In this document: in pieces, positions 26,035-49,346 of the stretch | Layout of the letters: each line of letters opens with the position of its first letter | Numbering within the stretch: position 1 is the first letter of the stretch | Source of the DNA: Planctomycetota bacterium | GTDB lineage: Bacteria; Planctomycetota; Planctomycetia; Gemmatales; Gemmataceae | Length of the DNA: 64,000 nucleotides | NCBI GenBank assembly: GCA_021413735.1 | Contig: JAIOPV010000169.1 | Location: forward strand, 12,365-76,364 | Direction: 5' to 3' | Translations under genes and position numbers: made by a program | The notes under the pieces: model-generated | The model's database searches: none | What the model was told of the DNA's origin: nothing | Seen by the model: the letters and a program-made list of their open reading frames with translations, nothing else

Positions 26035-26052
26035 TTCGCCGCTTGCGGCGAA
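26035..26052. repeat. TTCGCCGC-TT-GCGGCGAA palindrome (CGCCGC-AAGC family)
   Basis: Eight-base arms with a two-base centre, 11 bases after the HEAT/TPR gene stop. It is part of the same small dispersed family as 16139-16150. Confidence 0.6.
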
Positions 26053-26093
26053 ATCGCCGACCGAACTCCCCTCCGTGCTTGACCGTACATCCC

Positions 26094-29000
26094 ATGACAC
26101 CTAGCGTGTCTCCATCTCGCGCTCATGTCCGACATTCCGAGGTTGTCGTGAAGCTGTCTGCTCCTCCGCCACCGCCGCCACCGCCGGAACCGAATCAGGC
26201 CGTGCAACCCACCCCCAACGACAACCCTGAAGCCAGCAGCCCAACGCAACCCCCGCCGGAAGGCGTGCCCCCGGTTCCTCCCGTGGAGGCAGCGAAGACC
26301 GCCACCTGGCCTGTGTGGTTTTCTGGAGCCGACTTCGTCCTCGCTGTGGCCGCCGTCGTGCTCGCCTTCCTCGTTGCCTCATTCGTCGCGCGAAACTCCG
26401 ACATCTACCTGCATCTCGCGGCTGGTCAACGACTCCTCGCGGGCACATACACCCCCGGCAGCGATCCGTTCAGCTTCGCGGCCGCCGATCGTGCGTGGGT
26501 CAATCACAGCCTCCTGTTCGATGTCGGAACTTACCTGCTTTACTCGGGCAACGGCTCGACGCTCGGCGTTCTCAAAGCGATTGCCGTGGCCGCAGCATTC
26601 GGCCTGCTCATCGGCATCCGACGACCGGGTTACTCGCTGTGGCCGTGGGCCATGATTGCGGTCGTCGGCATTGTTGCGACGGCTCCATACGCGCACATGC
26701 GACCCGTTGTCGGTTCGATGCTACTGCTCGCTGTCACGCTGTTCCTGCTGTTCCGTCTGCCGCACCAGGCAGGGTCGTGGCGATTCCCGATCGCGATTGG
26801 CGTCACGTTCTGGGTGTGGTCGAACACGGATGAATGGTTCTTCCTCGGTCCGATGGCTCTGGCACTCGTGCTGATCGGTGAACTCATCCAGCGCTCGATG
26901 CGGAATGTCGAGACACAATCGACTTCGCCCCCGGAGGCAGAAACGCTGGGAGCGCTCCCGGACGTGAAGACTCTGACGCGAGCGCTCGGCATCGGGGTCG
27001 TGGTCTGCATGTTGAACCCGCACCATGTGCGAGTGTGGGAACTGCCGTTCGAGCTGGTTGGGGCAAAGGATGTCGCCGACGATATCCGCTTCAAGCAGTT
27101 GCTACTGACGCCGCTCGACTCGGATTACACGGACAAGCCGCATCTCGGGTACAACCAGAATGGCCTCGCGTTCGCGCTGCTGTTCGTTGGCGGTGGCGCT
27201 GCCCTTGGACTGGCGGGAGCGCGAATCCGAATCTCGCTCATCGCTCTCTGGGTAGGGTTCGCGGTGCTGACTCTCGGAACCATTCAAGCCATTCCGTTCC
27301 TGGCGATGGTGGCCGTCCCGATCATCGCATCGCAACTGAACGCCATCTCGTCGCGCATCAGTTTGAAATCGAGGAGCGAGCCGAAAACACAGATCTTGCT
27401 GCTTGGCTCGTCGCTCGGGCGCGTTGTCTCGTTGATTGCCGTCCTCGGTGCGTGTGTGGTGGCGTGGCCCGGCTGGATCCATCCGCCGAATAGTAACCCG
27501 GCGTTTGTTCGGCGTGTCGCGTGGGGCATCGAACCGGACGCTGGGATGGTGAAGGGTGCCGAGCAGTTACAGGCGATGCGGAAGAGCGGACAGCTTCCCG
27601 CCGATTCGCACGGGTTCATCACGCTCCTCGATTTCGCGAACTATTGTGCGTGGTTCGCTCCGGATGAAAAGGTGTACGCGAACACGCGATACAACCATCA
27701 CCGTCCCGAGTTGCCGGGTTACATGACTGTCCGCAGGGGACTGCAACTCATCCTGCCGGCCGAACCACGAAGCACCCAGGAGACGAGAGCACTGAACAAC
27801 GCCGCTCTCGAAACGCTCTTGAGCACAGGTTCCGAATACGTCGTTCTGAACGTCTCTCCCGGCGACTCCACCTACATCCGGCCTCCAGGTGGACCACTCG
27901 ACTGGGAGGTTCGGGGTTATACTTCGATCGCTGCGGTCTTGCATTGGCTCAACCCAGATCAGTGGTCGCCGTGGTACATCGACGGGCGGACAGCAATTAG
28001 CGGCTGGCGACCCAAACCCGGAAGTGAGAAACCGACGTTCGCGGCGTTGCGGTTGCGTCCGTCAGTGTTGGCGTTTGCTCCGGGCGGGGAACAACTGCCT
28101 GCGGGAGCGGTTCAACAAATTCGCCCGCAGGGCGGCTGGGAAGATGCGTTCATTCGGTCGCCGGGATTGCCTCCGCCGTCCGCTGACGAGTCGCTGATCT
28201 GGCACGCCTACCGCAAGATCGGCGAAGAACTTCAACAGCAGCGAGTGATCGCGGTTCGTGTGCTCGCGGCAATCACCGAGCGTGTAGTTGGCACTGCCGG
28301 TGTGATTTCGCAAGTGATTCCGCTGCCGCCGGCAAACACCGATCTGCGAGCGAGCGCGTTCCTCGCGCTCCGAGCGGCTCGACGAGCGATCGCTGCCGAC
28401 CCACAGCACCCAGACGGATATTTCGCACTGTTCCGAGCGCTCGACGCCCGCGAACTGTCGATCCCCGATGACGAACGAACGATCGCTCAGATCACGGCCT
28501 TGCGGCAGTGTCTGGAGCGAATGCCGCCGCCAGAGGAATACAAACCCGGAGTGTACGCGGCGATTCCTTCCAACGTCGCCATGAACTTGGCGGCGCTGTA
28601 TCTCGGTCCGCAGCAAAACCAGAACGGTGCCATCGTGGGGATCACGGGTATCCCGGTAAATGTTCCGGCGCTCGGACTTCTCACCCGCTTTGGGGCAACA
28701 ATCTCTCTCGTTGTGGAGGGGAACCGGATTGCTCGCAAGCCTACCATTCTCGTGATACAGAGCGGCCAAGGAGCCCGCGGCCCGTTTCTTCTTCCGCTCG
28801 ATCTCGCTCGTGAGGTGGTTCTGAAAGCTCAGGAGTACGCGAAGGTTGATTCAGGTAGCACCGAGGCGGCAGACCGGATCGTCACGCACCTCAAGGGTTT
28901 TCAGAAGGTCTTCGAGACGGATCTCGCACAGGCGAACAATGCCTACGAATCGCGTCGTGCCGCACAGAAGCCACCATTGCCTGGGCAGATTCAAATGGCT

Positions 29001-29735
29001 CTCCAGAACAACCTCACGGGCGAAGCTCTCCGGCTTCTGAAGTCGCCTGACCTGAGTGAAAAGGAGAAAGAGTTCGGCCCAGCTCTGCTGGATTTCCTTC
29101 TGCTGCGGGTCTCTCTGGAACTGGCCATCGGCGCGCTCGAAGATGCGGCTGCGGACCTGGAGGTTCTTCAAACGAACTCGGGAATCCAACAGCGGCTCGC
29201 CGATCCGAATTACCGAACGCTTTTCCAGTTGCTCGTGTACCAGAAGCTGCTTCTGGAGGGGAACTACGCTGATGCTGGCCGTGTGCTGGAAGAACTCGAC
29301 GGACCGGTAATCGGGAAAGATCCACTCAAAGCAACCCGAGATCAGTTCGACACGAAGTTCTACCTCGGGCTTGGCGACAAGCTCTCAATGTGGGCGGAAT
29401 TCGCCCCGCTGACCGGATTGCTTGCGCCGACACCATTCGACCTGCTTGCTCGGATTCGTGGGCCGGGTGCGGCACTTGGGGGAGAAGAACGCGGCCTCGG
29501 CTACTTGCAACTGCGAAACGACCTCGCGAATCGCCGCAATCAGGATGCCGATTTCTACTTCCGCCGTGGATTGCTTTTCCTGTACGAAGGCGACATGGTC
29601 GCTGCACGCAAGCGATTCCTGCAAACGCGATTGCCGGCCGTGAAAGAATGGGGATTGCTCGAGTATCGGAACGGGACAGCCGAACTCTACATCCGCCTGA
29701 TTGATGAAGCCGAGAAAGCTGCCCCCGCGAAGTGA
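26094..29735 (+). CDS. Large polytopic membrane protein, GT-C-like, with long C-terminal domain
   Basis: 1213 residues from ATG 26094. A short Pro-rich N-terminus (PPPPPPPPEPNQ) is followed by about ten hydrophobic helices in residues 80-460. The first outer loop has the pattern NSDIYLHLAAGQRLL … GSDPFSFAAADRAWVNHSLL, reminiscent of GT-C-fold polyprenyl-phosphate-dependent glycosyltransferases and their relatives (D-x-x-x-H-L, DPFS, W-x-N-H). From about residue 480 it is soluble with many helical, TPR-like segments (for example LAQANNAYESRRAAQK). The glycosyltransferase role is inferred from the loop pattern only. The stop is 13 bases before the next gene, suggesting an operon. Confidence 0.75.
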   Translation: MTPSVSPSRAHVRHSEVVVKLSAPPPPPPPPEPNQAVQPTPNDNPEASSPTQPPPEGVPPVPPVEAAKTATWPVWFSGADFVLAVAAVVLAFLVASFVARNSDIYLHLAAGQRLLAGTYTPGSDPFSFAAADRAWVNHSLLFDVGTYLLYSGNGSTLGVLKAIAVAAAFGLLIGIRRPGYSLWPWAMIAVVGIVATAPYAHMRPVVGSMLLLAVTLFLLFRLPHQAGSWRFPIAIGVTFWVWSNTDEWFFLGPMALALVLIGELIQRSMRNVETQSTSPPEAETLGALPDVKTLTRALGIGVVVCMLNPHHVRVWELPFELVGAKDVADDIRFKQLLLTPLDSDYTDKPHLGYNQNGLAFALLFVGGGAALGLAGARIRISLIALWVGFAVLTLGTIQAIPFLAMVAVPIIASQLNAISSRISLKSRSEPKTQILLLGSSLGRVVSLIAVLGACVVAWPGWIHPPNSNPAFVRRVAWGIEPDAGMVKGAEQLQAMRKSGQLPADSHGFITLLDFANYCAWFAPDEKVYANTRYNHHRPELPGYMTVRRGLQLILPAEPRSTQETRALNNAALETLLSTGSEYVVLNVSPGDSTYIRPPGGPLDWEVRGYTSIAAVLHWLNPDQWSPWYIDGRTAISGWRPKPGSEKPTFAALRLRPSVLAFAPGGEQLPAGAVQQIRPQGGWEDAFIRSPGLPPPSADESLIWHAYRKIGEELQQQRVIAVRVLAAITERVVGTAGVISQVIPLPPANTDLRASAFLALRAARRAIAADPQHPDGYFALFRALDARELSIPDDERTIAQITALRQCLERMPPPEEYKPGVYAAIPSNVAMNLAALYLGPQQNQNGAIVGITGIPVNVPALGLLTRFGATISLVVEGNRIARKPTILVIQSGQGARGPFLLPLDLAREVVLKAQEYAKVDSGSTEAADRIVTHLKGFQKVFETDLAQANNAYESRRAAQKPPLPGQIQMALQNNLTGEALRLLKSPDLSEKEKEFGPALLDFLLLRVSLELAIGALEDAAADLEVLQTNSGIQQRLADPNYRTLFQLLVYQKLLLEGNYADAGRVLEELDGPVIGKDPLKATRDQFDTKFYLGLGDKLSMWAEFAPLTGLLAPTPFDLLARIRGPGAALGGEERGLGYLQLRNDLANRRNQDADFYFRRGLLFLYEGDMVAARKRFLQTRLPAVKEWGLLEYRNGTAELYIRLIDEAEKAAPAK

Positions 29736-31846: not shown

Positions 31847-33283
31847 ATGTCCCGCACGTTCTCCATTGCGGTTTGTGTTCTCCTCGCCTCGCTTTCTCCC
31901 TCGTTCGCCGCGGAGAAGATGAACGTGCTGTTCATCGTCTCCGACGACCTCACAAACAACACCCTTAGTTGCTACGGCAGTCCCGTCAGCAAGTCGCCGA
32001 ACATCGACAAACTCGCCGCGAAGGGCGTGCGATTCGATCGTGCGTATTGCCAGTTCCCGCTGTGCAATCCGAGCCGTGCATCGTTCCTGACCGGCCTTCG
32101 ACCAGACACCACGAAGGTCTACGAGAACGCCACGCAGTTCCGCAAGAACATCCCCGATGCCCAGAGCGTCGGCCAGACATTCCAGAAGGGCGGTTACTTC
32201 GTCGCTCGCGTCGGCAAGCTCTATCACTACGGCGTGCCCGGTCAGATTGGCACTGATGGCCTCGACGACAAACCAAGCTGGCAACTCGTCGTGAACCCCA
32301 GGGGCCGCGACAAGGACGACGAGGAGAAGGATCTGATCTTCACGCTGACGCCGAATGGCAAAGGCTCCGGACGCTACGGCGGCACACTGAGTTGGCTCGC
32401 GGCTGAAGGCACCGACGCCGAGCAAACGGATGGCAAGATCGCGGCCGAGGTCGTGAAGCAACTCGAAGCGAACAAGGATAAGCCGTTCTTCTTGGCGTGC
32501 GGCTTCTTCCGACCGCACACGCCGTATGTGTCGCCGAAGAAGTATTTCGAGATGTATCCGGCCGACAAATTGAAGCTCGCGGATGTGCCGCCGAAGCATC
32601 GCGAGAGCGCTCCGGCTCCTGCGTTTGGCAGCGCGAAGGCCGAGCAAGAAAAGATGACAGACGCCCAGCGTCAGCAGGCGTTGCAGGCGTATTACGCTTC
32701 AACCACGTTCATGGACGCGCAGGTTGGAATCGTGCTCGACGCACTGGAGCAGTTGAAACTCGCCGACAAGACGATCGTGGTGTTCATCAGCGATCACGGG
32801 TACCACCTCGGCGAACATGGTCTGTGGCAGAAGATGAGCCTGTTCGAGAACTCGTGTCGTGTGCCGTTGGTGATCTACGACCCACGCTCGAAGGGCAACG
32901 GCAAGGCGTCTTCGCGCACGGTGGAACTGGTCGATCTGCACGCCACGCTCGCGGAGCTGGCGGGCCTGCCTGCTCCCAAGAACGACGGCACAAGCCTGAA
33001 GCCATTGCTGGACGATCCGAGTGCGAAGTGGGATCTGCCGGCGATCACGCAGGTGAGTCGTGGCACGCCGACCGCAACGGGCGAGCCGATTGGGAAGAAT
33101 CCGTGGTTCCTGGGTGCTTCGGTGCGGAACGAGCGTTACCGCTACACGGAGTGGGACGGCGGCAAGAAGGGCGTGCAGCTTTACGACTACGAGAAGGATC
33201 CGGGCGAGTTGAAGAACCTCGCGGAAGACCCGATGCACGCCGACGTCGTGAAGCAGATGAAGGCACTGTTGCCGAAGAAGTGA
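31847..33283 (+). CDS. Secreted sulfatase (iduronate-2-sulfatase-like)
   Basis: 478 residues with a signal peptide (MSRTFSIAVCVLLASLSPSFA). The catalytic motif CNPSRASFLTG near residue 75 fits C-x-P-x-R, in which the cysteine would be converted to formylglycine. Metal ligands appear in VLFIVSDDLTNN and FISDHGYHLGEHG. The overall pattern (SDDL, SPNIDKLAAKGVRFDRAYCQ, GYFVARVGKLYH) is that of the iduronate-2-sulfatase-like branch common in Planctomycetota. GGAGTG precedes the ATG. No dedicated maturation enzyme (FGE or anSME) is in the window. Confidence 0.94.
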   Translation: MSRTFSIAVCVLLASLSPSFAAEKMNVLFIVSDDLTNNTLSCYGSPVSKSPNIDKLAAKGVRFDRAYCQFPLCNPSRASFLTGLRPDTTKVYENATQFRKNIPDAQSVGQTFQKGGYFVARVGKLYHYGVPGQIGTDGLDDKPSWQLVVNPRGRDKDDEEKDLIFTLTPNGKGSGRYGGTLSWLAAEGTDAEQTDGKIAAEVVKQLEANKDKPFFLACGFFRPHTPYVSPKKYFEMYPADKLKLADVPPKHRESAPAPAFGSAKAEQEKMTDAQRQQALQAYYASTTFMDAQVGIVLDALEQLKLADKTIVVFISDHGYHLGEHGLWQKMSLFENSCRVPLVIYDPRSKGNGKASSRTVELVDLHATLAELAGLPAPKNDGTSLKPLLDDPSAKWDLPAITQVSRGTPTATGEPIGKNPWFLGASVRNERYRYTEWDGGKKGVQLYDYEKDPGELKNLAEDPMHADVVKQMKALLPKK

Positions 33284-33316
33284 CCTCAAGACTGCATCGG
33301 CTAGAAATGAGTTCAG

Positions 33317-33344
33317 CTTGGGCCACCACAGAGGGCGGCCCAAG
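33317..33344. terminator. Hairpin between convergent genes (GGGCCGCCCTCTGTGG family copy 2)
   Basis: Arms CTTGGGCC and GGCCCAAG with a 12-base loop sit between the convergent sulfatase and AAA+ genes, consistent with a bidirectional terminator. The centre is an inverted copy of the element at 24585-24606. Confidence 0.6.
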
Positions 33345-33357
33345 CCTTCCCAGGGTT

Positions 33358-36300
33358 TCAACAAAGCACCACATCTTCCAACAGAATCCGGCCGCGGGTC
33401 GAGTCGCCGACAATCTTCACCCGCCGTGGTTGCTTCCGTCGGCGGTGCCAGCCACGGTCGTACTGCTCCTCCGTGAACTGACGAACGGATTCGCCAGCCA
33501 GTTGCTCGAACGCCCGACTGACGTGCCGCATGTCGAAGAACAATTCCGTGTCCTTCGCGAGTTCCGCTGCCGTCAAGACACACACTCCTGGCTCGGACCC
33601 GAAACCGATCCCACGCCCACGCCATTCCCCCTCGCTGTAAGCACACACTTCCCGCGATGCCTTGTAGAGCAGATCGACGGCGCTGTCGTCCACTCCGACG
33701 AGTCGCAGGTTCGCGTTGATGAATCCGAATCGTTTGCCAAGCGTCTGAAGACCCGAGCGGAGCACTTCCACGAAATGCTCCCTCGCGAGAGCGAGCATCG
33801 GGATCGCCTCGAATCGCCGCACCAACTCCGGCCGCTTGTTGCCGTAGCGGTCGGTGAACGCTTCCGCGAGGATGTCCTTCACCTCACGCTCGCTCATGTG
33901 CCGGTGCAGTCGGTCCGCACCAGCGTTCGCAGCGCCGACGATGACGTGCCCAGGCCGCCGCACGGTTTCGCCGTTGCCCGCAGTGAGGATGCCAGCGTCG
34001 AAGTAGTTCATCAGCGCCGTGTACACGTCTGGGTGCATCTTCTCGATCTCGTCGAAGAACACAATCGCCGAAGCATTCTCCTCCGCGAACACATACAGAA
34101 TGCCCTTGTCCGGACCGACATAGCCACTCGGCGAACCAATCAGTCTGGCGACCGTGTGCGACTCCGAAAACTGTGCCCCCTCAACGTGGAAGAACGGCAT
34201 ATTCATCGCCAGCGCGAACTTCATCATCAACTCGGTCTTGCCGACACCCGTGGGGCCAGGAAGCAACAACGCGAGTGGCCGATCCACGTCTCGCACGCCG
34301 AGGATGTGGCTCTTCATGCGTGCCCCAACTGTGCGGATTGCTTGCTCCTGACCCAGCACCTCGAACGGAGCGTGAACGAGAAACTTGTCCACGGCCGTCT
34401 TGCGGTGACGGATCTGTTCGCCGTCGGGCAAGTGGAAGATGGACGGCGCCGCAGCGGCAACATCCTGTTCAGTGAGTCCACGGAAGCCCTCCATGCGGGC
34501 GTGCTGTGCGGCTCCGTTCAGGGTGTGCAGCACGAGGTTCAGGTTGTCCTGCTCCGGGCGGCGAGTGCGTTTCACGAGTGCCGCGGCGAACGCGAAAATC
34601 TCGCGCTCGATCGGCTCTTCCAGGCCGAGTTTGCGGCGCAGCGCTGGCTCCTCCGCCAGTAACCGATCGGGGATTTCGTCGTCGGTGAACGGCTGAATGA
34701 GCACCTGCGGCAACCCCGGAAGCGGCTCACGCATTCGCAGGATCACCTTGATGCGGTATCGCTCCAGAAGGCCGACAAACTGCCGGTACTGCTCCAGGTC
34801 CTTCACCGAGTCGGCGTCCACAACGAGCATCACGTTCTCGTCGTGCAGCGTCAGGTCGGAGAGCACCTTGTTAATCAACCCGAGGTCGGGGGTCAGGTTG
34901 AGGTCGATGCCGAGGAACTTGCGGATCAGCCGCTCCCAAATCTTGTCCATCTTGTCAGGCTTGTTGACGCACACGAGCGAGTAATCGCGCAGCCGTTCCC
35001 CGGCAGTGCCCTCCATCAATCGCCGAGCGAACGACCGCACAAGCCGCTCGTGCGGTCGAACGTAGTCTCCCCACACTTCGCGGGTCTTCTCGACGTCCTC
35101 CTTGATCTTCTCTTCCGCGACGACCGCCCCAAGTTCAGGGTGAAAGCTCGTCGTGTCCACGATGCACACGATGCCACGGTCGAGCAGATGCCGCTCCAAC
35201 TCCGCAACCTCCGCGGACATGCCGAAGGCATCGAGGTGAAGCGTTCGGTAGTCGTCGAGGGTGGCAATGTCCTTGAACACGACCGGCAACGCCCCGAGCT
35301 TGTTCGGACGGTACGACCCAGCGTAAACGCGGAACTGATTGAGGATCGCCGGCGCGTGGTTGAAGCGCTCAGCAGAAAGCTCCCGACACCGCTCAGGGAC
35401 ATCGGAGAAACCGAGTTCCCGAAGCACGAGCAGGATGGCTTGCAGGTCTGGCTCGCTGAGGTACGCAGCGTGCTCGAACGCATAGCACAGGTAGTCGTGA
35501 GGCTTCGGCTCCTTACGCCCGCACCACACACGGACGAGGTACGTGAAGTGCTTGCGATCCGACGCGCCGGCGATGCGAACCCGCGTCCGCAGGGCGTCGA
35601 TGAGCATGCCGATCTTCGGGTCGATCTTCTCGGGAAGGATTCGTTCCAGAATGAATCGGAGGGTTGGACCCATCTGCGACGGCACAACAGGGAAGTCCCG
35701 CAGTTGTTGCTCGGCGACGCTGCCAAACCCCTGCACCCGATGGTCGCGAACGTGCTTGGCCGCGATCGGCGACAGCAAGAACGACGCCGACCGCAGCAGT
35801 TTCACGCCCTGACGCCCGCGTGCGGGACCAGTGGAGAAAGCACGGTCGAGGTACTGACAGAACACCGCACCATCGGAACCAGAGAGCAGGCTGAAGACGA
35901 GCTGCTTTCCGGCGCGACGAGCCTTGGCGATCTCGTCGCGGAACTTGCGGACACGCGCTCGCCCGGCCTCGGCGTCGTCGAGTTGCCGCAGAATCGTCTT
36001 TCGCTTCGCCCGGTCCTGGTCGGCTTGCTTGATCTTCTTTTCGCAGTCCTCGATCGACTTCGCCAGCTTCGTGTCTTCACGCTCCCAAACCGACATCGTC
36101 TTCTTGTTGTCCTGATCCGGGGAATCCAGCAAGTGCTTCTTTCGCTTGGCCCTCGACAGCCGCAGTTCGCGTTTCGTCTTGCGGTAGTCGCGTTCGGCCT
36201 CGACGCTCAGTGCCTTGCGGCGCAACAATTCCCCATCGCGATTTCCGATCAGGAACCAATCAATGAACTCAGCCGCGAGCTGTGCTTGCTCCTTCTTCTC

Positions 36301-37203
36301 GATGTGGTCGGTGGCGAAGGTCGGCAGGTCCGGCACCTTGATGCACGCGAACGGCCTTGGGATCGCCGGGTCGTGGTCAATCACGAAATCGTGAGCGGAG
36401 TTAATCGTCGCGTGCAGTAAATCCGCAGCCTCCTTGTCGAGAGCTTGCGTCGCGGGCTGGGCGGGCTGATTCGGAGCGCCAGCCGGCGCAGGCTCCTCCT
36501 TTTCCATCTCCACGTAGTCCTTCGCGGCGCCGATGCCCTGAATGACCAAGAACCGGAAACGGTCGTTGGACAAGCCTTCCAACAGCGTGCGGATGCGAAC
36601 GAAGAACGGCGTGCAGAGGCGAAGGTAGCGGACCGCCTTGCGTGGGTCGTCGCAGCCGCCAGCCACAAACCGGCCGAAGAAGTTGAGGCTCGTGACCGGG
36701 AACGGGAACTGTGCGGCGAGGTCGCGTAAGTCTGCCCCGTCGAGCGCGAGTTGATGGCGAAGGATGGACTTCAACAGGTCGAGTTGCGAGCGAGTGACGC
36801 CCGTGAACTCCTGATACGCCTCGGCGTCGCCGGCATCGGGGAACGTCTCGGGGTTGAACGGGCAGTGAGCGATCTCATACAGCAGTTGTGGCAGCGCCTC
36901 ATTGATGGCGTCGCGGCTGCGTTCGGCGCTGGCGACGACCTTCCGATCGCTGGGCAGGTAGCCCATGATGTCGAGGTAAGTTCGGAGGTGTTCGCGATCG
37001 CGCGCATTGGTGGACGGCCGGAGCAAGACGGCCCAGGTCATGACCGCCTCCAACGCCGAGAGCTGCGGACGACTCAGGCCCAGCCGTGCGGCGAGTTCCT
37101 GGACTCGCTGCCGTTCGGCAGTCACCGCTCCGGGCACGGGTGCCACGGGGGTGAACAGCGTGACTGTTTCCGTCGCGTTCGCGATCTGGGTGCGTGCTTG
37201 CAT
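33358..37203 (-). CDS. Very large Clp-like AAA+ ATPase with an atypical N-terminal two-thirds
   Basis: 1281 residues. The AAA-2 (Clp D2-like) module is in the C-terminal quarter: Walker A GPTGVGKTEL near residue 983, pore-loop-like GYVGPDKG, Walker B IVFFDEIEK near 1048, and a lid region starting RPELVRRFEAIP. No second P-loop was found. Around residues 760-950 a segment ending in LLAEEPALRRKLGLEEP looks like the remnant of a D1 lid. A highly charged coiled coil spans about 325-435. The first 320 residues are helical and unrecognised. No Clp N-domain, signal peptide or membrane segment. A protein remodelling or unfolding role follows from the family; the target is unknown. Confidence 0.85.
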   Translation of the reverse strand: MQARTQIANATETVTLFTPVAPVPGAVTAERQRVQELAARLGLSRPQLSALEAVMTWAVLLRPSTNARDREHLRTYLDIMGYLPSDRKVVASAERSRDAINEALPQLLYEIAHCPFNPETFPDAGDAEAYQEFTGVTRSQLDLLKSILRHQLALDGADLRDLAAQFPFPVTSLNFFGRFVAGGCDDPRKAVRYLRLCTPFFVRIRTLLEGLSNDRFRFLVIQGIGAAKDYVEMEKEEPAPAGAPNQPAQPATQALDKEAADLLHATINSAHDFVIDHDPAIPRPFACIKVPDLPTFATDHIEKKEQAQLAAEFIDWFLIGNRDGELLRRKALSVEAERDYRKTKRELRLSRAKRKKHLLDSPDQDNKKTMSVWEREDTKLAKSIEDCEKKIKQADQDRAKRKTILRQLDDAEAGRARVRKFRDEIAKARRAGKQLVFSLLSGSDGAVFCQYLDRAFSTGPARGRQGVKLLRSASFLLSPIAAKHVRDHRVQGFGSVAEQQLRDFPVVPSQMGPTLRFILERILPEKIDPKIGMLIDALRTRVRIAGASDRKHFTYLVRVWCGRKEPKPHDYLCYAFEHAAYLSEPDLQAILLVLRELGFSDVPERCRELSAERFNHAPAILNQFRVYAGSYRPNKLGALPVVFKDIATLDDYRTLHLDAFGMSAEVAELERHLLDRGIVCIVDTTSFHPELGAVVAEEKIKEDVEKTREVWGDYVRPHERLVRSFARRLMEGTAGERLRDYSLVCVNKPDKMDKIWERLIRKFLGIDLNLTPDLGLINKVLSDLTLHDENVMLVVDADSVKDLEQYRQFVGLLERYRIKVILRMREPLPGLPQVLIQPFTDDEIPDRLLAEEPALRRKLGLEEPIEREIFAFAAALVKRTRRPEQDNLNLVLHTLNGAAQHARMEGFRGLTEQDVAAAAPSIFHLPDGEQIRHRKTAVDKFLVHAPFEVLGQEQAIRTVGARMKSHILGVRDVDRPLALLLPGPTGVGKTELMMKFALAMNMPFFHVEGAQFSESHTVARLIGSPSGYVGPDKGILYVFAEENASAIVFFDEIEKMHPDVYTALMNYFDAGILTAGNGETVRRPGHVIVGAANAGADRLHRHMSEREVKDILAEAFTDRYGNKRPELVRRFEAIPMLALAREHFVEVLRSGLQTLGKRFGFINANLRLVGVDDSAVDLLYKASREVCAYSEGEWRGRGIGFGSEPGVCVLTAAELAKDTELFFDMRHVSRAFEQLAGESVRQFTEEQYDRGWHRRRKQPRRVKIVGDSTRGRILLEDVVLC

Positions 37204-37330
37204 CGGATGCTCATGGCGTCAGGGATGTGTGTCTGACAGAAATGAGACGTGCAAGGCCGGAGAGGTTCGCCCGGCGTGGGTCGTCGTGACGCTGGAGCGA
37301 GAGCGAGGCAAGCCACGGCTGGGTTGTCCG

Positions 37331-38356
37331 TCAGCCCGCGAGCTTTCGGATGGCGGCCGCTGCCTTCACGCACTGCTCGCGTGTAACGTCGAGATGTGTC
37401 ACGGCTCGGATCACTTTTTCGCCCAGCGCCGCGACCAACACGCCATCCGCCTTCAACCGATTCGCCACATCTTTCGCAGTGCCCAACTTCCCGCCAACCT
37501 CGAACCACACGAGATTCGTTTCCACCTTCGCCGGCGTCAGCGTCAAGCCGGGGACTTCTCCTACAGCCTCGGCGACGAGCTTCGCGTTCGCATGATCTTC
37601 TGCGAGGCGGTCGATGTTGTGATCGAGTGCATACAGGCACGCACCCGCGAGGAAGCCCGCTTGCCGCATCGCACCGCCAAACAGTTTCCGGATGCGTCGG
37701 GCGTGTGCGATCAGATCCTTCGGCCCGAGTAGCGCCGACCCGACAGGCGTTCCAAGTCCCTTGCTGAAACAGACGCTCACGGTGTCAAACATCTGGCCCC
37801 AGATCTTCGCGGGAACACCAGTCACCACCATCGCGTTCCAGATGCGGGCACCATCGAGATGCGTTGCCAATCCGTTGGAACGTGCCCACTTCGAGATGCC
37901 GTTGATGGCTTCCGGCGAGTAGACCGTGCCGCCGCCGCGATTGTGCGTGTTCTCCAGCGACACCAGCCTGGTGCGAACAGCGTGCATGTCGTTGGGGCGG
38001 ATCTTCCCGGCGAAATCGCTTTCGTTCAGCAAGCCGAACTGCCCGTCGATGGTTCGGCACGTCACGCCGCTGAGAGCCGCCGCGCCGCCTGCTTCCCACA
38101 GGTAGATGTGGCTCGTCGTTTCGAGGAGGATTTCGTCTTGCGGTCGGCAGTGGATGCGCACCGCAATCTGATTCGACATGGTGCCGCTGGGTACGAACAA
38201 ACCCGCTTCGTGGCCGAACATCGCGGCTGTGCGGCGTTCGAGTTCGTTGATGGTGGGGTCTTCGCCGAAGACATCGTCGCCGACGGCCGCGGCGGACATG
38301 GCCGCGAGCATTCCGGGGGTGGGCTTCGTCACGGTGTCGCTGCGAAGGTCAATCAT
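37331..38356 (-). CDS. ltaE: Low-specificity L-threonine aldolase
   Basis: Pyridoxal-phosphate enzyme that splits L-threonine or L-allo-threonine to glycine and acetaldehyde; 341 residues from ATG 38356, which starts MIDLRSDTVTKPT, the classical N-terminus of the family. The cofactor-binding lysine lies in VSVCFSKGLGTPVGS. Other family marks are GDDVFGEDPT and LATHLDGARIWNA. An upstream in-frame start at 38407 would add a hydrophobic stretch derived from the neighbouring AT-rich palindrome and was rejected. Cytoplasmic. It is followed by the AAA+ gene on the same strand after 127 bases. Confidence 0.92.
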   Translation of the reverse strand: MIDLRSDTVTKPTPGMLAAMSAAAVGDDVFGEDPTINELERRTAAMFGHEAGLFVPSGTMSNQIAVRIHCRPQDEILLETTSHIYLWEAGGAAALSGVTCRTIDGQFGLLNESDFAGKIRPNDMHAVRTRLVSLENTHNRGGGTVYSPEAINGISKWARSNGLATHLDGARIWNAMVVTGVPAKIWGQMFDTVSVCFSKGLGTPVGSALLGPKDLIAHARRIRKLFGGAMRQAGFLAGACLYALDHNIDRLAEDHANAKLVAEAVGEVPGLTLTPAKVETNLVWFEVGGKLGTAKDVANRLKADGVLVAALGEKVIRAVTHLDVTREQCVKAAAAIRKLAG

Positions 38357-38377
38357 GGAGCAACCCAAAAACAAAGA

Positions 38378-38489
38378 AATTAGCCGCACGATAAACAACA
38401 CGATCAAAGCAGGATCAAAGCAGAAGCCTGAGCTTAACTCTGTTTTCTGTCTGAATCGTGTCTTTATCGTTTTTATCGTGCGGCTAATT
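38378..38489. repeat. AT-rich inverted repeat, about 110 bases
   Basis: Arms AATTAGCCGCACGATAAA (38378-38395) and its complement at 38472-38489 match over 18 bp, with further partial pairing outside and inside (ATCGTGT/ACACGAT). It is clearly more AT-rich than its surroundings, separates the threonine aldolase start from the next gene's stop, and resembles a small non-autonomous mobile element. Confidence 0.75.
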
Positions 38490-42743: not shown

Positions 42744-45700
42744 ATGTCCGGCATTTCGCCTTCGGCACTCGAAACCAGGCAGGTCGCGACCGCCCGAGTT
42801 CGCCGGATGCGGGCCGCTCGCGGTGCGTGCTGGCTGATCGTGATCGGTCTGCTTTCCGTCACGAGTGTGGCGATACTCGACGCGATCGTTCGGCTTCCCC
42901 CTTGGTCTCGCGGATTGACGCTCGCCATCTGGCTCACAAGCGTCGGCGTTCTCGCATGGCGGCTCGTCTTCCGGGCACTGCGTGACGAACCCATCGCACA
43001 GCCGACACGAGAGGCGAGAAGGGAACTGCCCGGAAACCTTCGAGCTGCCGCCGCCGCGACTCTCGCACTTGGGGCGTGTCTGCTCGCAGGTGCGTTCGTG
43101 CCGGGGGCCGTCGATCAACTCCGTCGCGTTGCTGTGCCGTGGCATCGGGCCGCTTCCTCGCCATATCGGATTGTCGTCACTTCGAATAACCCGGTCGTGC
43201 GTCGTGGAGGCACCGTCACGCTCACGGCGTATTTGAAGACCGATACGGGTGCGTCATCGGCGATCACGGCAACGCTGTTTTGTCGCGAAGTTGGCGGCAC
43301 TGTCGAGCGACCGTTTCACATGATCGACGACGGGAACGCGGCGTTTCATTTCACGCGAGTTGTGTCTGCCGATTTCGATTACCGCATTGAGGCCGGCGGC
43401 GCGACGAGCGACTGGTTCACGGTGTCGGCCGTTGATCCGATCGAACTCACCGACGGCACAGTCACAGAAACCCTCCCGCCGAAGTACGTCTCGAACACGG
43501 CGAAATCCGTGCGACAGGGGTTCGCGCCGCTCGAAGGATACCAGCATTCGACGGCTGAGTTTCGGCTGCGGTTCACGCGAGCACCGAAAGCCGCATGGCT
43601 CGAATTCCGTGCCGAGGGCACCACACCCGAGACCCGCCCCGTCTCGCTTTCCGACGAAGGACTGAGCGGCACCGCGACATTTCGCCTGAAGCAAGATGGC
43701 ACGTTGAAACTGGTCATGGTGGTCGATCAGAACGGCCGCGAACTTCGGCTCGACGACCCTGCCGTGACTGTGCGAGTGAAGCCGGACACGCCGCCGCGTT
43801 TCGAGCAGGTCAGCGGGTTGTCGCCACGACCGATGGTGGCTCGCCCCGGCGAACGGCTCACTCTCGCGATCACTGCGACCGACGATATCGCGATCAGTTC
43901 GGCGGTGCTGGAATACGCTGTCGGAGCCGCCGATGCTCCATCGGTTTCGGTGCCGATTCCGATCACGGGAACCGGCACGGCGAAGGCAACCGGTCGGCTG
44001 GAGTTCGATCTCGCCGATAAGGTCAAGCTCGGCGAAACGCTCCGGTTCCGGGTTCGTGTGTTGGATTCTCGCCGTCTCGATGACGTTGCATTGAAGCCGC
44101 AGGAGACGACGTACCCCGAATCGGGCTGGGCGACGGTGCGGATTGACGCGGATGCTCTGCCCAGCGAAGTGCAGGAGATTCAAGGCCGCCGTGAGTACGT
44201 GCGGCTGGCGCTGGAGCGGGCACTGAAAGAGATTCGCGAGGAAATGCTGCCGGCGGTCGATCATGTCATCGAGGCCGCGGACAAGCAAGTGTTGCCGCCC
44301 GAACAGATCTTCAGACTGAACAACTCCCGCGAGAGCAACAAGACCGCCGTTGGTTTGCTTCACGATGCGGCGCGCGAAAATGCTCTGTGCCTGGAGTTGC
44401 GACCGCTCGCCGCGGCACTACGAACCGTCGCCGACAGTTCGCTGAAAGAAGCCGAGGAAGCACTGCGACAAGCCGCGATTGCGTCGTCACTGGAACGCGG
44501 GATGCTGCTCGCGAGCGGACGAAAGCATCTCGTCGAGGCCGGCGAAAGAGTTGAAGCCTGTATCGCACGCAACGAGCAACTGGCACGGGATCGCCTCGAT
44601 ACGCGGGCACTTGCGGGATTCGCAGCGGAACAGGCTTCGCTCAGTCAGCGAGTGACGAACACCACGCCCGCGGAACTTGCGAAGCTTCAGCAGGAATTGC
44701 TCGCCAAGTTCGACAAGTTGCTTCAGGAAAGTGCGACGCTGCGGAATGCAACCGAAGCCGCGAAGCAGCAAGAATTCGTGCGGCTCGCGACACACGCCAC
44801 CGACCTCGCCGAGATGATCCACGAGTTCAACGACGCCGTGCAGAAGTTCCAGGCCGACGCAAAAAGCCAGGCGTTCGCCGCGATCACGACCGATCAGAAG
44901 GTACTCGCCGCGAACGCTGTGGTCTTGCTCGCACGCATTGAAACTGCCGCACGCCTCGCGAATGTCGTGCTGCCGAAAGCCGAGGAGTTTCGCCGCGTGG
45001 CTGAGTTGGTCGCCGACGGAAAGAACGTCGAAGCGCTGGTCGAGATGGCACAACTCACGCTCGCGCTGGATGCCGTCGCCGCGACGTTTGACAAGCTCGC
45101 AACCGATCGGCTCGACTCGAAAGCCGCGGCTCGACAACTCACGCTCTGGCAAGACGATCTCCGCACGAGGTTCCGCACGGCGACAGCCGCGAACCCCGCG
45201 AACTTCGCTACGCTTCCTGCCGCAACTCAGGCGAGTTTCCGCACGGAACAAGCTGCGATTAAGGCCGCCGCAACTGCTCTGCGAGTGCCGGCTGGTGAAA
45301 GTTCCACGGCTCGCGACACGGCAGTCGAGCACATCACAAGCGTCTGTAATTTCTTGAACGGCACCGGAGCGAATGCTGATCGTGCAATGGAAATCGCCGT
45401 CGCGGAGTTGACTCGCCTTGCGATGAAGCTGCCCACGATTCCCGAACGCCTCGCAAAGACTCGCCCGGAGTTCGAGAAGCTATTTCGCGAACAGGAGTCT
45501 ATTCAGGTGGGCGTCGAGGCGGTGTTCCGCAACGACCCCCCGGCCACGTTCCCGATGAAGCTCATGCCGTTCGCACTGCGACAACGGAAACAGATCGCCG
45601 GGTTCGCTGCTCTCGATCTGCCGGGGTTCGACGGTCGCCGGGAACGCACGCTGGCCGCTCTCACGGCCGCGACGAACGACCTGCAAGCATCGCTCGCCCA

Positions 45701-47336
45701 AGATGCTCCGGCGTCGCAGGCGTGGGTGAAACGCGAGTTCGAGCGATGGCGAAATGTTCTGTTCGATAATGTGCCGCCGCCCGACGACAAGACCGACGAA
45801 CTCGCTCGCCGTCTGGAAGAGACCGCGAAGACCCTTCAGGCAACGGGTTCAACACCGACCCTCGCGGCCAACGTGCAGGATGTCTTCAAGCAACTCGGGA
45901 AGTTGACGCGAACGCCGGAGGCGAGCGCTCTCTTGTACGATGCGTTGGCATCGACAACCACGGCTGATCTGGCGTTTCGCAACAACAACACGAAGCCGGC
46001 TGAATTGCTTCGCAAGGTCCGCACCGCCGCCGAGGATTTGGCACGCCTCTCGGATCGCCTCAACGGGTTGGAGTCCGATCTTGACCGCGTTCGTCGGCTG
46101 TCAGCGAACCGTCGGCTGGGGGCGGCTCGGGCGAAGGACGTTCCACCGAATTCGCAGGTGAATGCCGAGGTGGGGCGAGAGCTTGGCCGCGAACTCGAAG
46201 AGTTGTCGCTCACTCGTGTCGGCTTCGTGGCACAGCTTCACAAGCAGCGTTTGCTCGCTGAGTACGCACGCCTTCGCGACAAACCCGGTGCGGATCGACA
46301 GGCCGGAGCGCATGCAGCTCTCGCAACTTCGCTCGATGAACTGGCCGCCCTCATGGCCGACATCGACGAACTGACCGCGACCTTCGAGCGAAACCCGCCA
46401 GCCAGCGAACCGGGCGAAGCAGATGCTTACTTGCCTTCAAAGCTGTTCGCTGATGCAGTTCGCGATTTGGCTCGTCGGCACCGCATTGCTCGCGAACGGA
46501 TCACGAACATTCCCGCTGAACTCGCGAAGTGGACGAAGCCCGCAAAAACGAATCCGTTGGTTCAGATCGAGAACTCGCAGCGGGAACTCGCGGCGGAAGT
46601 GTCGAAGTTGGCCGAGGGGCTTTCGGCGTATGTCGGCAAGTTGCCGACCGATCCGGGCTTCGCAGAGTCGGAATCGTTTCTGATGGCGGATCGTCTTCGG
46701 AATGGGTTGGTGCGTGAAGCGAGGGAGAACGGCGAGCGCACTGCGAGGCTTCTTCGCAAGCTCGCGGGTTCGGAACATGCGAAGGGTTCCACGGCACTGG
46801 CTGAACGGCAGGATCGCATTCTCGCGGAGTTGGCAAAAGTGGCGACGCTGCCCGGCGTGATCGCCGCTCGTCAGCGTGTGCGCTCTGAGGAACTCGCCAT
46901 CGCGACCGAAGATCTCGTGAAGGCGTTGGAAGCAGCGGCTCGCGACGTGGGACCAGAAAGCCCTGCGGGGAAGTCGCTACTGGAGGCTGCGAACATCGCG
47001 AGCGGTACGGGGAAGTTGTTGCGTGAGGCCGAAACGAAACTGAGTACAGGCAAAGTGGAGGACGCGGCGTCGCTGCGAGAGGATGCCGAGGCTCAGATTC
47101 GGGCCGCGGCAACGAAGGTGAGTGGCGTTGGCCCGATGCTCACGACGTTCGACGCAGAGACCGCCGCGCTGGGGGAAACGCTTCGTCGGACGGAACTGGC
47201 GATGCGGCATCTGGCGCGCGAGTTAGTGGGGAAGTACGACCCTGTTGCGATGGCGAAGGTGATGCGAACCGTGGCGGATGGATTGGGGCATGCTGCGAAG
47301 GTGATTCGTGAACGCGTCGCGAACGACGGGAAGTGA
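42744..47336 (+). CDS. Giant DUF4175-like membrane-anchored coiled-coil protein
   Basis: 1530 residues. Three hydrophobic helices in the first 120 residues (WLIVIGLLSVTSVAILDAI, LTLAIWLTSVGVLAWRLVF, AATLALGACLLAGAFVPGA) anchor the protein. Then come two or three beta-rich, Ig-like domains (to about residue 460; SSPYRIVVTSNNPVVRRGG, PPRFEQVSGLSPR). The remaining 1000 residues are long alanine/leucine/glutamate helices. This layout is the DUF4175-like type often found near MoxR/von Willebrand loci in Planctomycetota. There is no catalytic motif. Role probably structural in the envelope; this is inferred. GGAG precedes the ATG. Confidence 0.8.
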   Translation: MSGISPSALETRQVATARVRRMRAARGACWLIVIGLLSVTSVAILDAIVRLPPWSRGLTLAIWLTSVGVLAWRLVFRALRDEPIAQPTREARRELPGNLRAAAAATLALGACLLAGAFVPGAVDQLRRVAVPWHRAASSPYRIVVTSNNPVVRRGGTVTLTAYLKTDTGASSAITATLFCREVGGTVERPFHMIDDGNAAFHFTRVVSADFDYRIEAGGATSDWFTVSAVDPIELTDGTVTETLPPKYVSNTAKSVRQGFAPLEGYQHSTAEFRLRFTRAPKAAWLEFRAEGTTPETRPVSLSDEGLSGTATFRLKQDGTLKLVMVVDQNGRELRLDDPAVTVRVKPDTPPRFEQVSGLSPRPMVARPGERLTLAITATDDIAISSAVLEYAVGAADAPSVSVPIPITGTGTAKATGRLEFDLADKVKLGETLRFRVRVLDSRRLDDVALKPQETTYPESGWATVRIDADALPSEVQEIQGRREYVRLALERALKEIREEMLPAVDHVIEAADKQVLPPEQIFRLNNSRESNKTAVGLLHDAARENALCLELRPLAAALRTVADSSLKEAEEALRQAAIASSLERGMLLASGRKHLVEAGERVEACIARNEQLARDRLDTRALAGFAAEQASLSQRVTNTTPAELAKLQQELLAKFDKLLQESATLRNATEAAKQQEFVRLATHATDLAEMIHEFNDAVQKFQADAKSQAFAAITTDQKVLAANAVVLLARIETAARLANVVLPKAEEFRRVAELVADGKNVEALVEMAQLTLALDAVAATFDKLATDRLDSKAAARQLTLWQDDLRTRFRTATAANPANFATLPAATQASFRTEQAAIKAAATALRVPAGESSTARDTAVEHITSVCNFLNGTGANADRAMEIAVAELTRLAMKLPTIPERLAKTRPEFEKLFREQESIQVGVEAVFRNDPPATFPMKLMPFALRQRKQIAGFAALDLPGFDGRRERTLAALTAATNDLQASLAQDAPASQAWVKREFERWRNVLFDNVPPPDDKTDELARRLEETAKTLQATGSTPTLAANVQDVFKQLGKLTRTPEASALLYDALASTTTADLAFRNNNTKPAELLRKVRTAAEDLARLSDRLNGLESDLDRVRRLSANRRLGAARAKDVPPNSQVNAEVGRELGRELEELSLTRVGFVAQLHKQRLLAEYARLRDKPGADRQAGAHAALATSLDELAALMADIDELTATFERNPPASEPGEADAYLPSKLFADAVRDLARRHRIARERITNIPAELAKWTKPAKTNPLVQIENSQRELAAEVSKLAEGLSAYVGKLPTDPGFAESESFLMADRLRNGLVREARENGERTARLLRKLAGSEHAKGSTALAERQDRILAELAKVATLPGVIAARQRVRSEELAIATEDLVKALEAAARDVGPESPAGKSLLEAANIASGTGKLLREAETKLSTGKVEDAASLREDAEAQIRAAATKVSGVGPMLTTFDAETAALGETLRRTELAMRHLARELVGKYDPVAMAKVMRTVADGLGHAAKVIRERVANDGK

Positions 47337-48750: not shown

Positions 48751-49346
48751 GGCGAAACCTGGTCGGCAAGCAGTGTCTTCAGTTTCTGGCGCGCGTAAAA
48801 TAGCCTGCTCATTACCGTTCCGATAGAGATTCCAAGCGAATCCGCGACCTCTCGATAAGACAATCCACCCTCGACGTGCAAGACGAATGTCTGTCGCTGC
48901 GTGTCGGGCAACCGGGCCAAGGCCGCGTCGATCTTCATGCGAACATCGGCTCGGCTCAACTCGGCGTCCGCCGGCGGATGATCGTCTGGTCCGAAACGGT
49001 CTGGCGGATCATCTCGCGGTGCCTGCGGAACTCGGGCGTCGCGTTTCCGGTGCCGGCCGACATCAAGAGCGGCGTTGCTGACGATTCGAAGCAACCACGT
49101 CTTGAACGAACTGTGCCCACGGAACTTGTCGAGGTTCGTGAGCAGCTTGACGAACGCATCCTGAACCGCGTCGAGAGCGTCCGCCTCTCGACCGAGCAAC
49201 CGATAGGCGACCCGATACGCAACCGCACGGTGACGGTGGAACAGGTCGTCGAGAGCGGTGCGATCCCCTGCCGCGAACCGCTCAAGCAGAGCGACATCGG
49301 TCGGCACGGAGACAACAGGCTTGTGAAGAACCGAGACAGCAGGCAT
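48747..49346 (-). CDS. ECF-type RNA polymerase sigma factor
   Basis: 199 residues from ATG 49346; a longer reading upstream is Arg/Ser rich and non-homologous. Region 2 is visible as HRAVAYRVAYRLLGREADAL … DAFVKLLTNLDKFRGHSSFK; region 4 as ALARLPDTQRQTFVLHVEGG and LSYREVADSLGISIGTVMSR with a helix-turn-helix. No SD is evident. It would direct RNA polymerase to a dedicated promoter set and be held by the overlapping anti-sigma factor. Its own target promoter was not identified here. Confidence 0.92.
   Translation of the reverse strand: MPAVSVLHKPVVSVPTDVALLERFAAGDRTALDDLFHRHRAVAYRVAYRLLGREADALDAVQDAFVKLLTNLDKFRGHSSFKTWLLRIVSNAALDVGRHRKRDARVPQAPRDDPPDRFGPDDHPPADAELSRADVRMKIDAALARLPDTQRQTFVLHVEGGLSYREVADSLGISIGTVMSRLFYARQKLKTLLADQVSP

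Follow-up and report, generated by a model that had tools for sequence, protein, structure and literature searches.

A rare Clp-like AAA+ protein of Gemmataceae with a single recognisable P-loop motor behind a large N-terminal region of no recognised family

The DNA analysed here (the window) is a stretch of 64,000 nucleotides from a planctomycete of the family Gemmataceae (assembly GCA_021413735.1, contig JAIOPV010000169.1, positions 12,365 to 76,364), and its reverse strand carries a gene for a Clp-like AAA+ protein of 1281 residues. The open reading frame (ORF), which a first-pass annotation had picked out from the sequence alone, was found exactly at 33358-37203 (-) with an ATG start. Relatives were sought in genome_contigs (one genome per species, 84,980 species) with six exact 8-residue patterns, a scan that reaches close relatives only. 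One full-length relative, L009, was recovered from a metagenome-assembled genome of another Gemmataceae genus (taken as the same contig as G069:C121, since each has 24,707 bases); the second locus, L010, was an ordinary Clp protein matching residues 910-1110 only. The L009 protein was 78% identical to the window protein across residues 1-1278, whereas 52% of 527 four-fold degenerate sites differed over the 1275 aligned codons. Identity was 70% in residues 1-640 and 86% in residues 641-1281, and four-fold change was equal in both halves. High protein identity despite such heavy, saturated silent change gives a pattern of purifying selection over the whole gene, strongest in the motor half, so that both halves appear to be constrained and the motor half more so. 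By this comparison the ORF is genuine, and a chance ORF is excluded.

The last quarter of the protein was the only part that could be recognised as a Clp D2 motor, as the first-pass annotation had proposed. Pfam AAA_2 matched residues 979-1133 with 81 bits, the NCBIfam profiles for ClpA, ClpB and TssH matched across residues ~911-1181 with 119, 117 and 107 bits respectively, and hhalign against a profile of five Clp proteins gave a probability of 99.6% over residues 910-1160. The best PDB sequence matches were the motor of CLPB/Skd3 and ClpB. The equivalog cut-offs are 993 for ClpA, 1232 for ClpB and 885 for TssH (TIGR03345); the protein lay far below every Clp cut-off listed, and it matched no characterised long AAA+ family strongly. 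To read the D2 motifs, the protein was aligned with 55 Clp D2 rows, five of them inspected by eye, and letters and positions were taken from a motif scan. Walker A, the aromatic pore loop, Walker B, the sensor-1 asparagine (Asn1093 in the alignment with Clp D2 rows) and, by alignment only, an arginine-finger candidate were all present (Table 1). The sensor-2 arginine of Clp proteins sits in a GAR motif of the D2 small domain, and R1226 is proposed for this role. Judged from these matches, the protein is a member of the Clp/Hsp100 AAA+ superfamily through its D2. In a D2 tree the window protein and its homologue sat on a branch of 3.25 changes and were not assigned to any Clp class by it.

Table 1. 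Features of the AAA+ gene and its product, with positions in the window.
Feature	Residues	Position	Strand	Basis
Whole gene, 1281-residue Clp-like AAA+ protein		33358..37203	(-)	ATG-start ORF; 78%-identical homologue along full length
Unfamiliar region, predicted helical	1-240	36484..37203	(-)	No reliable Pfam or PHROGs match; all pLDDT blocks <50
Basic long helix, candidate coiled coil	324-431	35911..36234	(-)	Composition; model helices 324-360 and 366-431; block pLDDT 32-70 (341-400 at 52-70)
Unfamiliar region, mostly helical in a poor model	432-640	35284..35910	(-)	Well conserved among three homologues
Proposed decayed D1 core	640-836	34696..35286	(-)	No P-loop; MLVVDA without Glu; model strands 792-796 and 819-823; block pLDDT 39-58, low confidence
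D1 lid-like helical bundle	837-925	34429..34695	(-)	Block pLDDT 56-86 from residue 840; VIA superpositions; alignment without D1 rows
Clp D2 AAA+ motor	945-1168	33700..34371	(-)	Pfam AAA_2; hhalign 99.6%; VIA Z 24.1, rmsd 2.9, 233 residues to 6oax_E
Walker A, GPTGVGKT	983-990	34234..34257	(-)	Alignment and motif scan
Pore loop, GSPSGYVG	1023-1030	34114..34137	(-)	Alignment with Clp rows, homologue, motif scan
Walker B, VFFDE	1048-1052	34048..34062	(-)	Alignment and motif scan
PELVRR, candidate arginine finger	R1130	33814..33831	(-)	Aligned with PEF(L/I)NR of five Clp rows
Divergent D2 small domain and C-terminal extension; proposed sensor 2	1169-1281; R1226	33361..33699	(-)	Inferred; poor alignment; pLDDT <50 at 1160-1171 and from 1184

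The loop following sensor 1, where ClpC-type relatives bear the ClpP-docking motif, was ~14 residues shorter than in the five Clp rows inspected, all of which bear a GF motif, and it contained no GF or GL motif. The docking loop of the L009 homologue was likewise shortened and without either motif. From the shortened loop we infer that the protein does not dock ClpP. A ClpP-coupled unfoldase like ClpA or ClpC, equipped with a divergent docking element, would agree with the Clp type of the D2 and with ClpA being the best NCBIfam score; given the state of the loop in both intact copies, however, we regard it as very improbable.

We further investigated the region in front of the motor, where the first-pass annotation had seen the remnant of a D1 lid without a P-loop. 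The motif scan of the protein found no P-loop before residue 983 and a single one overall, and MLVVDA (792-797), which lacks the catalytic glutamate, was the only Walker-B-like string near the place expected for D1. Sequence profiles did not detect a D1: hhalign of a two-row profile against Clp D1 gave a probability of 0.2%, and a hidden Markov model (HMM) built from 88 Clp D1 regions scored the query at -1.2 bits and placed it at residues 374-430 in the long helix instead of 640-925. In the controls of this HMM the best domain of the reversed sequence reached 6.8 bits and the best shuffle 3.5 bits (445 of 1000 shuffles scored). The lid was supported by a structure model. An AlphaFold2 model of residues 640-1281, the second of two, was computed from an alignment of 57 rows, 55 of which started ~45 residues before the D2 P-loop and hence contained no D1. 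Its mean predicted local distance difference test (pLDDT) score was 60, with block values of 82-94 in the D2 core (950-1109) and lower values in the later D2, whose end dropped to 46. A helical bundle with block pLDDT of 56-86 was formed in this model by residues 840-925.

The highest-ranking chains of a Foldseek search were re-examined with VIA-align. Among the 50 rows listed, 39 began at or before model residue 202 (protein residue 841), aligning the bundle together with D2, as in 6w20_A (ClpA 348-683; Z 24.1, root-mean-square deviation (rmsd) 9.8, 307 aligned) and 6oay_B (ClpB 339-795; Z 23.3, rmsd 9.7, 310 aligned). In the remaining 11 rows D2 alone was aligned; ten of these chains are described either as C-terminal or second nucleotide-binding domain (NBD2) constructs of ClpB or as CLPB/Skd3, and the eleventh was the two-ring ClpB chain 6oax_E. 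These superpositions support, at the level of a predicted model, that the bundle falls at the place held by the D1 lid in the ClpA and ClpB chains. The lid remnant proposed at first pass was thus supported by the model but not by sequence. Only one P-loop was present, and the neighbouring second motor seems to be dead.

The N-terminal residues had been said to match nothing familiar, and this held for residues 1-640. In Pfam, HTH_3 at E = 0.12 was the sole match to residues 1-640 up to E = 1, and residues 602-931 had no match; in PHROGs, residues 1-931 matched 0 families. All 60 PDB sequence matches listed (of 147) covered residues from 901 onward, and a weak PADLOC row, RT_UG14 at residues 738-821 (E 0.055), was disregarded. 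The structure model of residues 1-700, built on a two-row alignment, was mainly helical with a pLDDT of 38, its best part (341-400) lying in the basic helix. Residues 324-431 contained 32% K+R, 19% D+E and 3% P+G, so that the charged stretch claimed at first pass was recovered in composition, and a low-confidence model showed it as helix. It did not stand out by a simple heptad score, windows near residue 1142 being higher, and supercoiling was therefore not demonstrated. The N-terminal region represents a large conserved module that belongs to no recognised family.

The distribution of the gene was determined by searches within the phylum, in which a limited number of candidates was scored per genome and all counts included the genome of the window (G000). 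Protein searches with residues 1-931 detected the gene in 3 of 95 genomes of the Gemmataceae and in 1 of 392 of the phylum, and an HMM of residues 1-640 found 3 of 397 genomes of the class. With an HMM of residues 640-935, 4 of 102 genomes of the order and 3 of 392 of the phylum were matched; the fourth match in the order (G072; 17.8 bits, with stops inside) and two in the phylum (G047 and G408; 16-17 bits) were judged to be chance and rejected as homologues. The whole protein at E <= 1e-40 was found in 1 of 59 genomes, its own, and in 0 of 18 congeners. The three carriers (G000, G069 and G066) fall in three genera, and the gene looks rare, solitary and sporadic.

A mobile or viral origin was considered and rejected. 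Scans of viral contigs with the family of the AAA+ gene found no relative (a separate scan of viral contigs used L010 just to collect D2 rows). Searches of phages and plasmids with tblastn gave matches of <60% identity, and no record reached 80% coverage; the matches listed (20 of 140 phage and 20 of 2112 plasmid records) covered only residues from 710 onward. Recent transfer, as judged by low synonymous divergence, was likewise unsupported: four-fold change was 0.52 for the AAA+ gene versus 0.58 for chorismate synthase, which is 78% identical between the same two genomes and is a single core gene for comparison, near saturation, its G069 match carrying one stop. An older transfer may be compatible with these four-fold data.

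The gene is flanked by a sulfatase (31847-33283, +) and by a threonine-aldolase-like enzyme (37331-38407, -; Pfam Beta_elim_lyase). In the three congeners examined for both, these two genes lie apart, on separate contigs in G008 and at distances of ~1.09 Mb in G013 and ~2.46 Mb in G016. Compared with these three congeners, the AAA+ gene stands at the junction of two syntenic blocks (window 31847-38407), one with the sulfatase and the other with the threonine-aldolase-like and chorismate synthase genes. The gene order on this side (threonine-aldolase-like enzyme, next ORF, chorismate synthase) is kept in the four congeners compared, and a contaminant contig was therefore rejected for the upstream side. 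Two other window ORFs, 26043-29735 and 42744-47336 (1230 and 1530 residues), had no Pfam match at limits of E 0.01 / 0.001.

When 25 window genes were tested against L009 and the G066 locus (L015), only the AAA+ gene itself matched. The G066 copy is broken: residues ~45 to 250 are missing with a change of frame, residue ~807 is followed straight by the C-terminal tail, and >8 kb away there is another C-terminal fragment. The tail is found at both ends of L015:1856-13045, and a type I restriction-modification (R-M) operon (HsdM, HsdS, a Schlafen-AlbA protein and HsdR) lies between the gene pieces. Two distant matches were noted, one of a G066 ORF (L015:19270-19998) to window 48765-49343 (31% identity, ~12 kb from the AAA+ gene in the window) and one of a DUF1549/DUF1553 protein (L009:2646-4391) to a G066 stretch (28%). 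Beyond these two, far from the gene, no protease, conserved partner, operon or conserved neighbourhood was found at the three loci. The proposal that the gene belongs to an undescribed system was weakened by this result.

We also considered whether the protein belongs to an anti-phage system, or to a conflict system of another kind, that occurs sporadically. The patchy occurrence (3 of 95 family genomes, three genera) would suit such a system, as would the R-M operon between the gene pieces in G066 and the matches that PADLOC gave with PDC-M37B (55 bits) and with DolB (39 bits). These matches, however, spanned only about residues 937-1104, within the AAA+ core; PADLOC gives no cut-off for them, and we took a match beyond the core as our own criterion. 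Three other Clp-like proteins of the same genome (L005-L007) scored higher (M37B 69-95 bits). At 1e-4, none of 8 window neighbours had a PADLOC match, and the 5 L009 neighbours yielded nothing but a weak match of a WD40 protein to HEAT-ARM. The immediate flanks are metabolic enzymes by Pfam, and the R-M operon may simply have inserted into the G066 gene. A defence role is possible with little behind it, and we consider a conflict system quite improbable.

Taken together, we slightly favour a stand-alone unfoldase of the Hsp100/Clp type that would thread its substrates independently of ClpP, with a single working ring, D1 as a dead collar and a lineage-specific N-terminal part for recognition. 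The protein would assemble as a ring, in which the D2 domains would use ATP hydrolysis and their GYVG loops to draw polypeptides through the centre. D1, having lost ATP binding, would act as a non-catalytic collar, and the choice or positioning of a given substrate or complex may fall to the basic long helix and to the unfamiliar first ~640 residues. Since the ClpP-docking loop is shortened, the substrate would presumably be released remodelled or disaggregated instead of being degraded. The earlier idea of an unfoldase motor on unknown domains, and hence a specialised remodelling machine, was retained as the best reading on the strength of the catalytic and pore motifs. Several observations weigh against the one-ring unfoldase. 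Sensor 2 and the C-terminal small domain could not be placed with confidence, the R1226 candidate lying in a misaligned region of low pLDDT. The D1 was not seen by sequence methods, and the reversed sequence outscored the query with the D1 HMM. The remnant comes from one AlphaFold2 model; the superpositions that include the bundle have rmsd of about 8-14, which shows that the two parts are placed differently relative to each other, and the ranges from VIA state no more than the first and last aligned residues. Moreover, only two intact copies are known, the third (G066) being broken, and neither a substrate, a partner nor a link to stress was found.

We also weighed a remodeller dedicated to a single complex, which like TssH/ClpV on type VI sheaths would recycle a specific assembly instead of aggregates. 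The very large conserved N-terminal region and the rarity of the gene suit a narrow client better than general proteostasis, and other Clp-like proteins exist in the same genome. No conserved neighbour offers itself as a client, however, and the protein neither approached the TssH cut-off nor grouped with TssH in the D2 tree, so that this explanation appears unlikely. The stand-alone unfoldase could also represent a separate Hsp100 class, sporadic in Gemmataceae, with a live-ring threading motor, a pseudo-ATPase D1 collar and a ~640-residue module of new fold, serving one cellular or mobile-element assembly. We hold this to be conceivable though doubtful, and the N-terminal model (pLDDT 38) allows no statement on the newness of the fold. 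Two-ring Clp machines normally use both rings; a D1 kept in place without its ATP site would, if real, be a natural test of the non-ATP contribution of D1.

For each of ClpB, ClpA/ClpC, Skd3 and TssH, the protein lacked a defining feature that was tested, and among the papers listed by literature searches none was recognisable as a description of it. It resembles ClpB/Hsp104 in a D2 with the GYVG loop, in a long helical stretch and, by the model, in a D1 lid-like bundle at the same place. Two P-loop-bearing ATPase modules, a trait of ClpB/Hsp104, were not found, the D1 here having no P-loop and being invisible to sequence profiles, and the ClpB score lay far below its cut-off. The long helix of ClpB is an insertion within D1, whereas the helix here precedes D1. 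Human CLPB/Skd3, a mitochondrial Hsp100, ranked among the top PDB matches by sequence and by fold and likewise has a single C-terminal Clp-type motor behind an unrelated N-terminal module. The window protein differs from it in ~640 unfamiliar residues and a D1 lid-like remnant, and no ankyrin family was among its Pfam matches. As described in PMC9934407, the single nucleotide-binding domain of human CLPB follows ankyrin repeats and a linker helix, so that an Hsp100 whose only ATPase domain stands behind an unrelated N-terminal domain has a precedent.

In the D2 tree, a Weissella row annotated as a Clp ATP-binding subunit, which we take to be ClpL, did not group with the window protein. ClpL, according to PMC11006417, is an autonomous AAA+ disaggregase and provides a precedent for a stand-alone function. 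ClpI of Actinomycetota, as described in PMC10149685, is a lineage-restricted Clp class of which some members have no ClpP motif, two points of likeness, but its ATPase modules are intact in a double ring. WP_233943174.1 (P0003), encoded on a Rhizobium plasmid, likewise combines a Clp motor that has a single P-loop with a preceding region of ~300 residues that was not recognised; between that region and residues 640-935, however, no similarity was detected (hhalign 0.4%). On this plasmid of Rhizobium leguminosarum (L019:5479-13293), the gene lies beside genes for a 4Fe-4S single-cluster protein and a large AAA-domain protein. The Clp-like open frames L005, L006 and L007 (1105, 875 and 1218 residues), on contigs C113 and C84 of the genome of the window, have two P-loops each. 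A GYVG-type pore motif was not found in them by the pattern used, and they formed one supported clade in the D2 tree. The L005 and L006 matches lie within ~4 kb of each other on C113.

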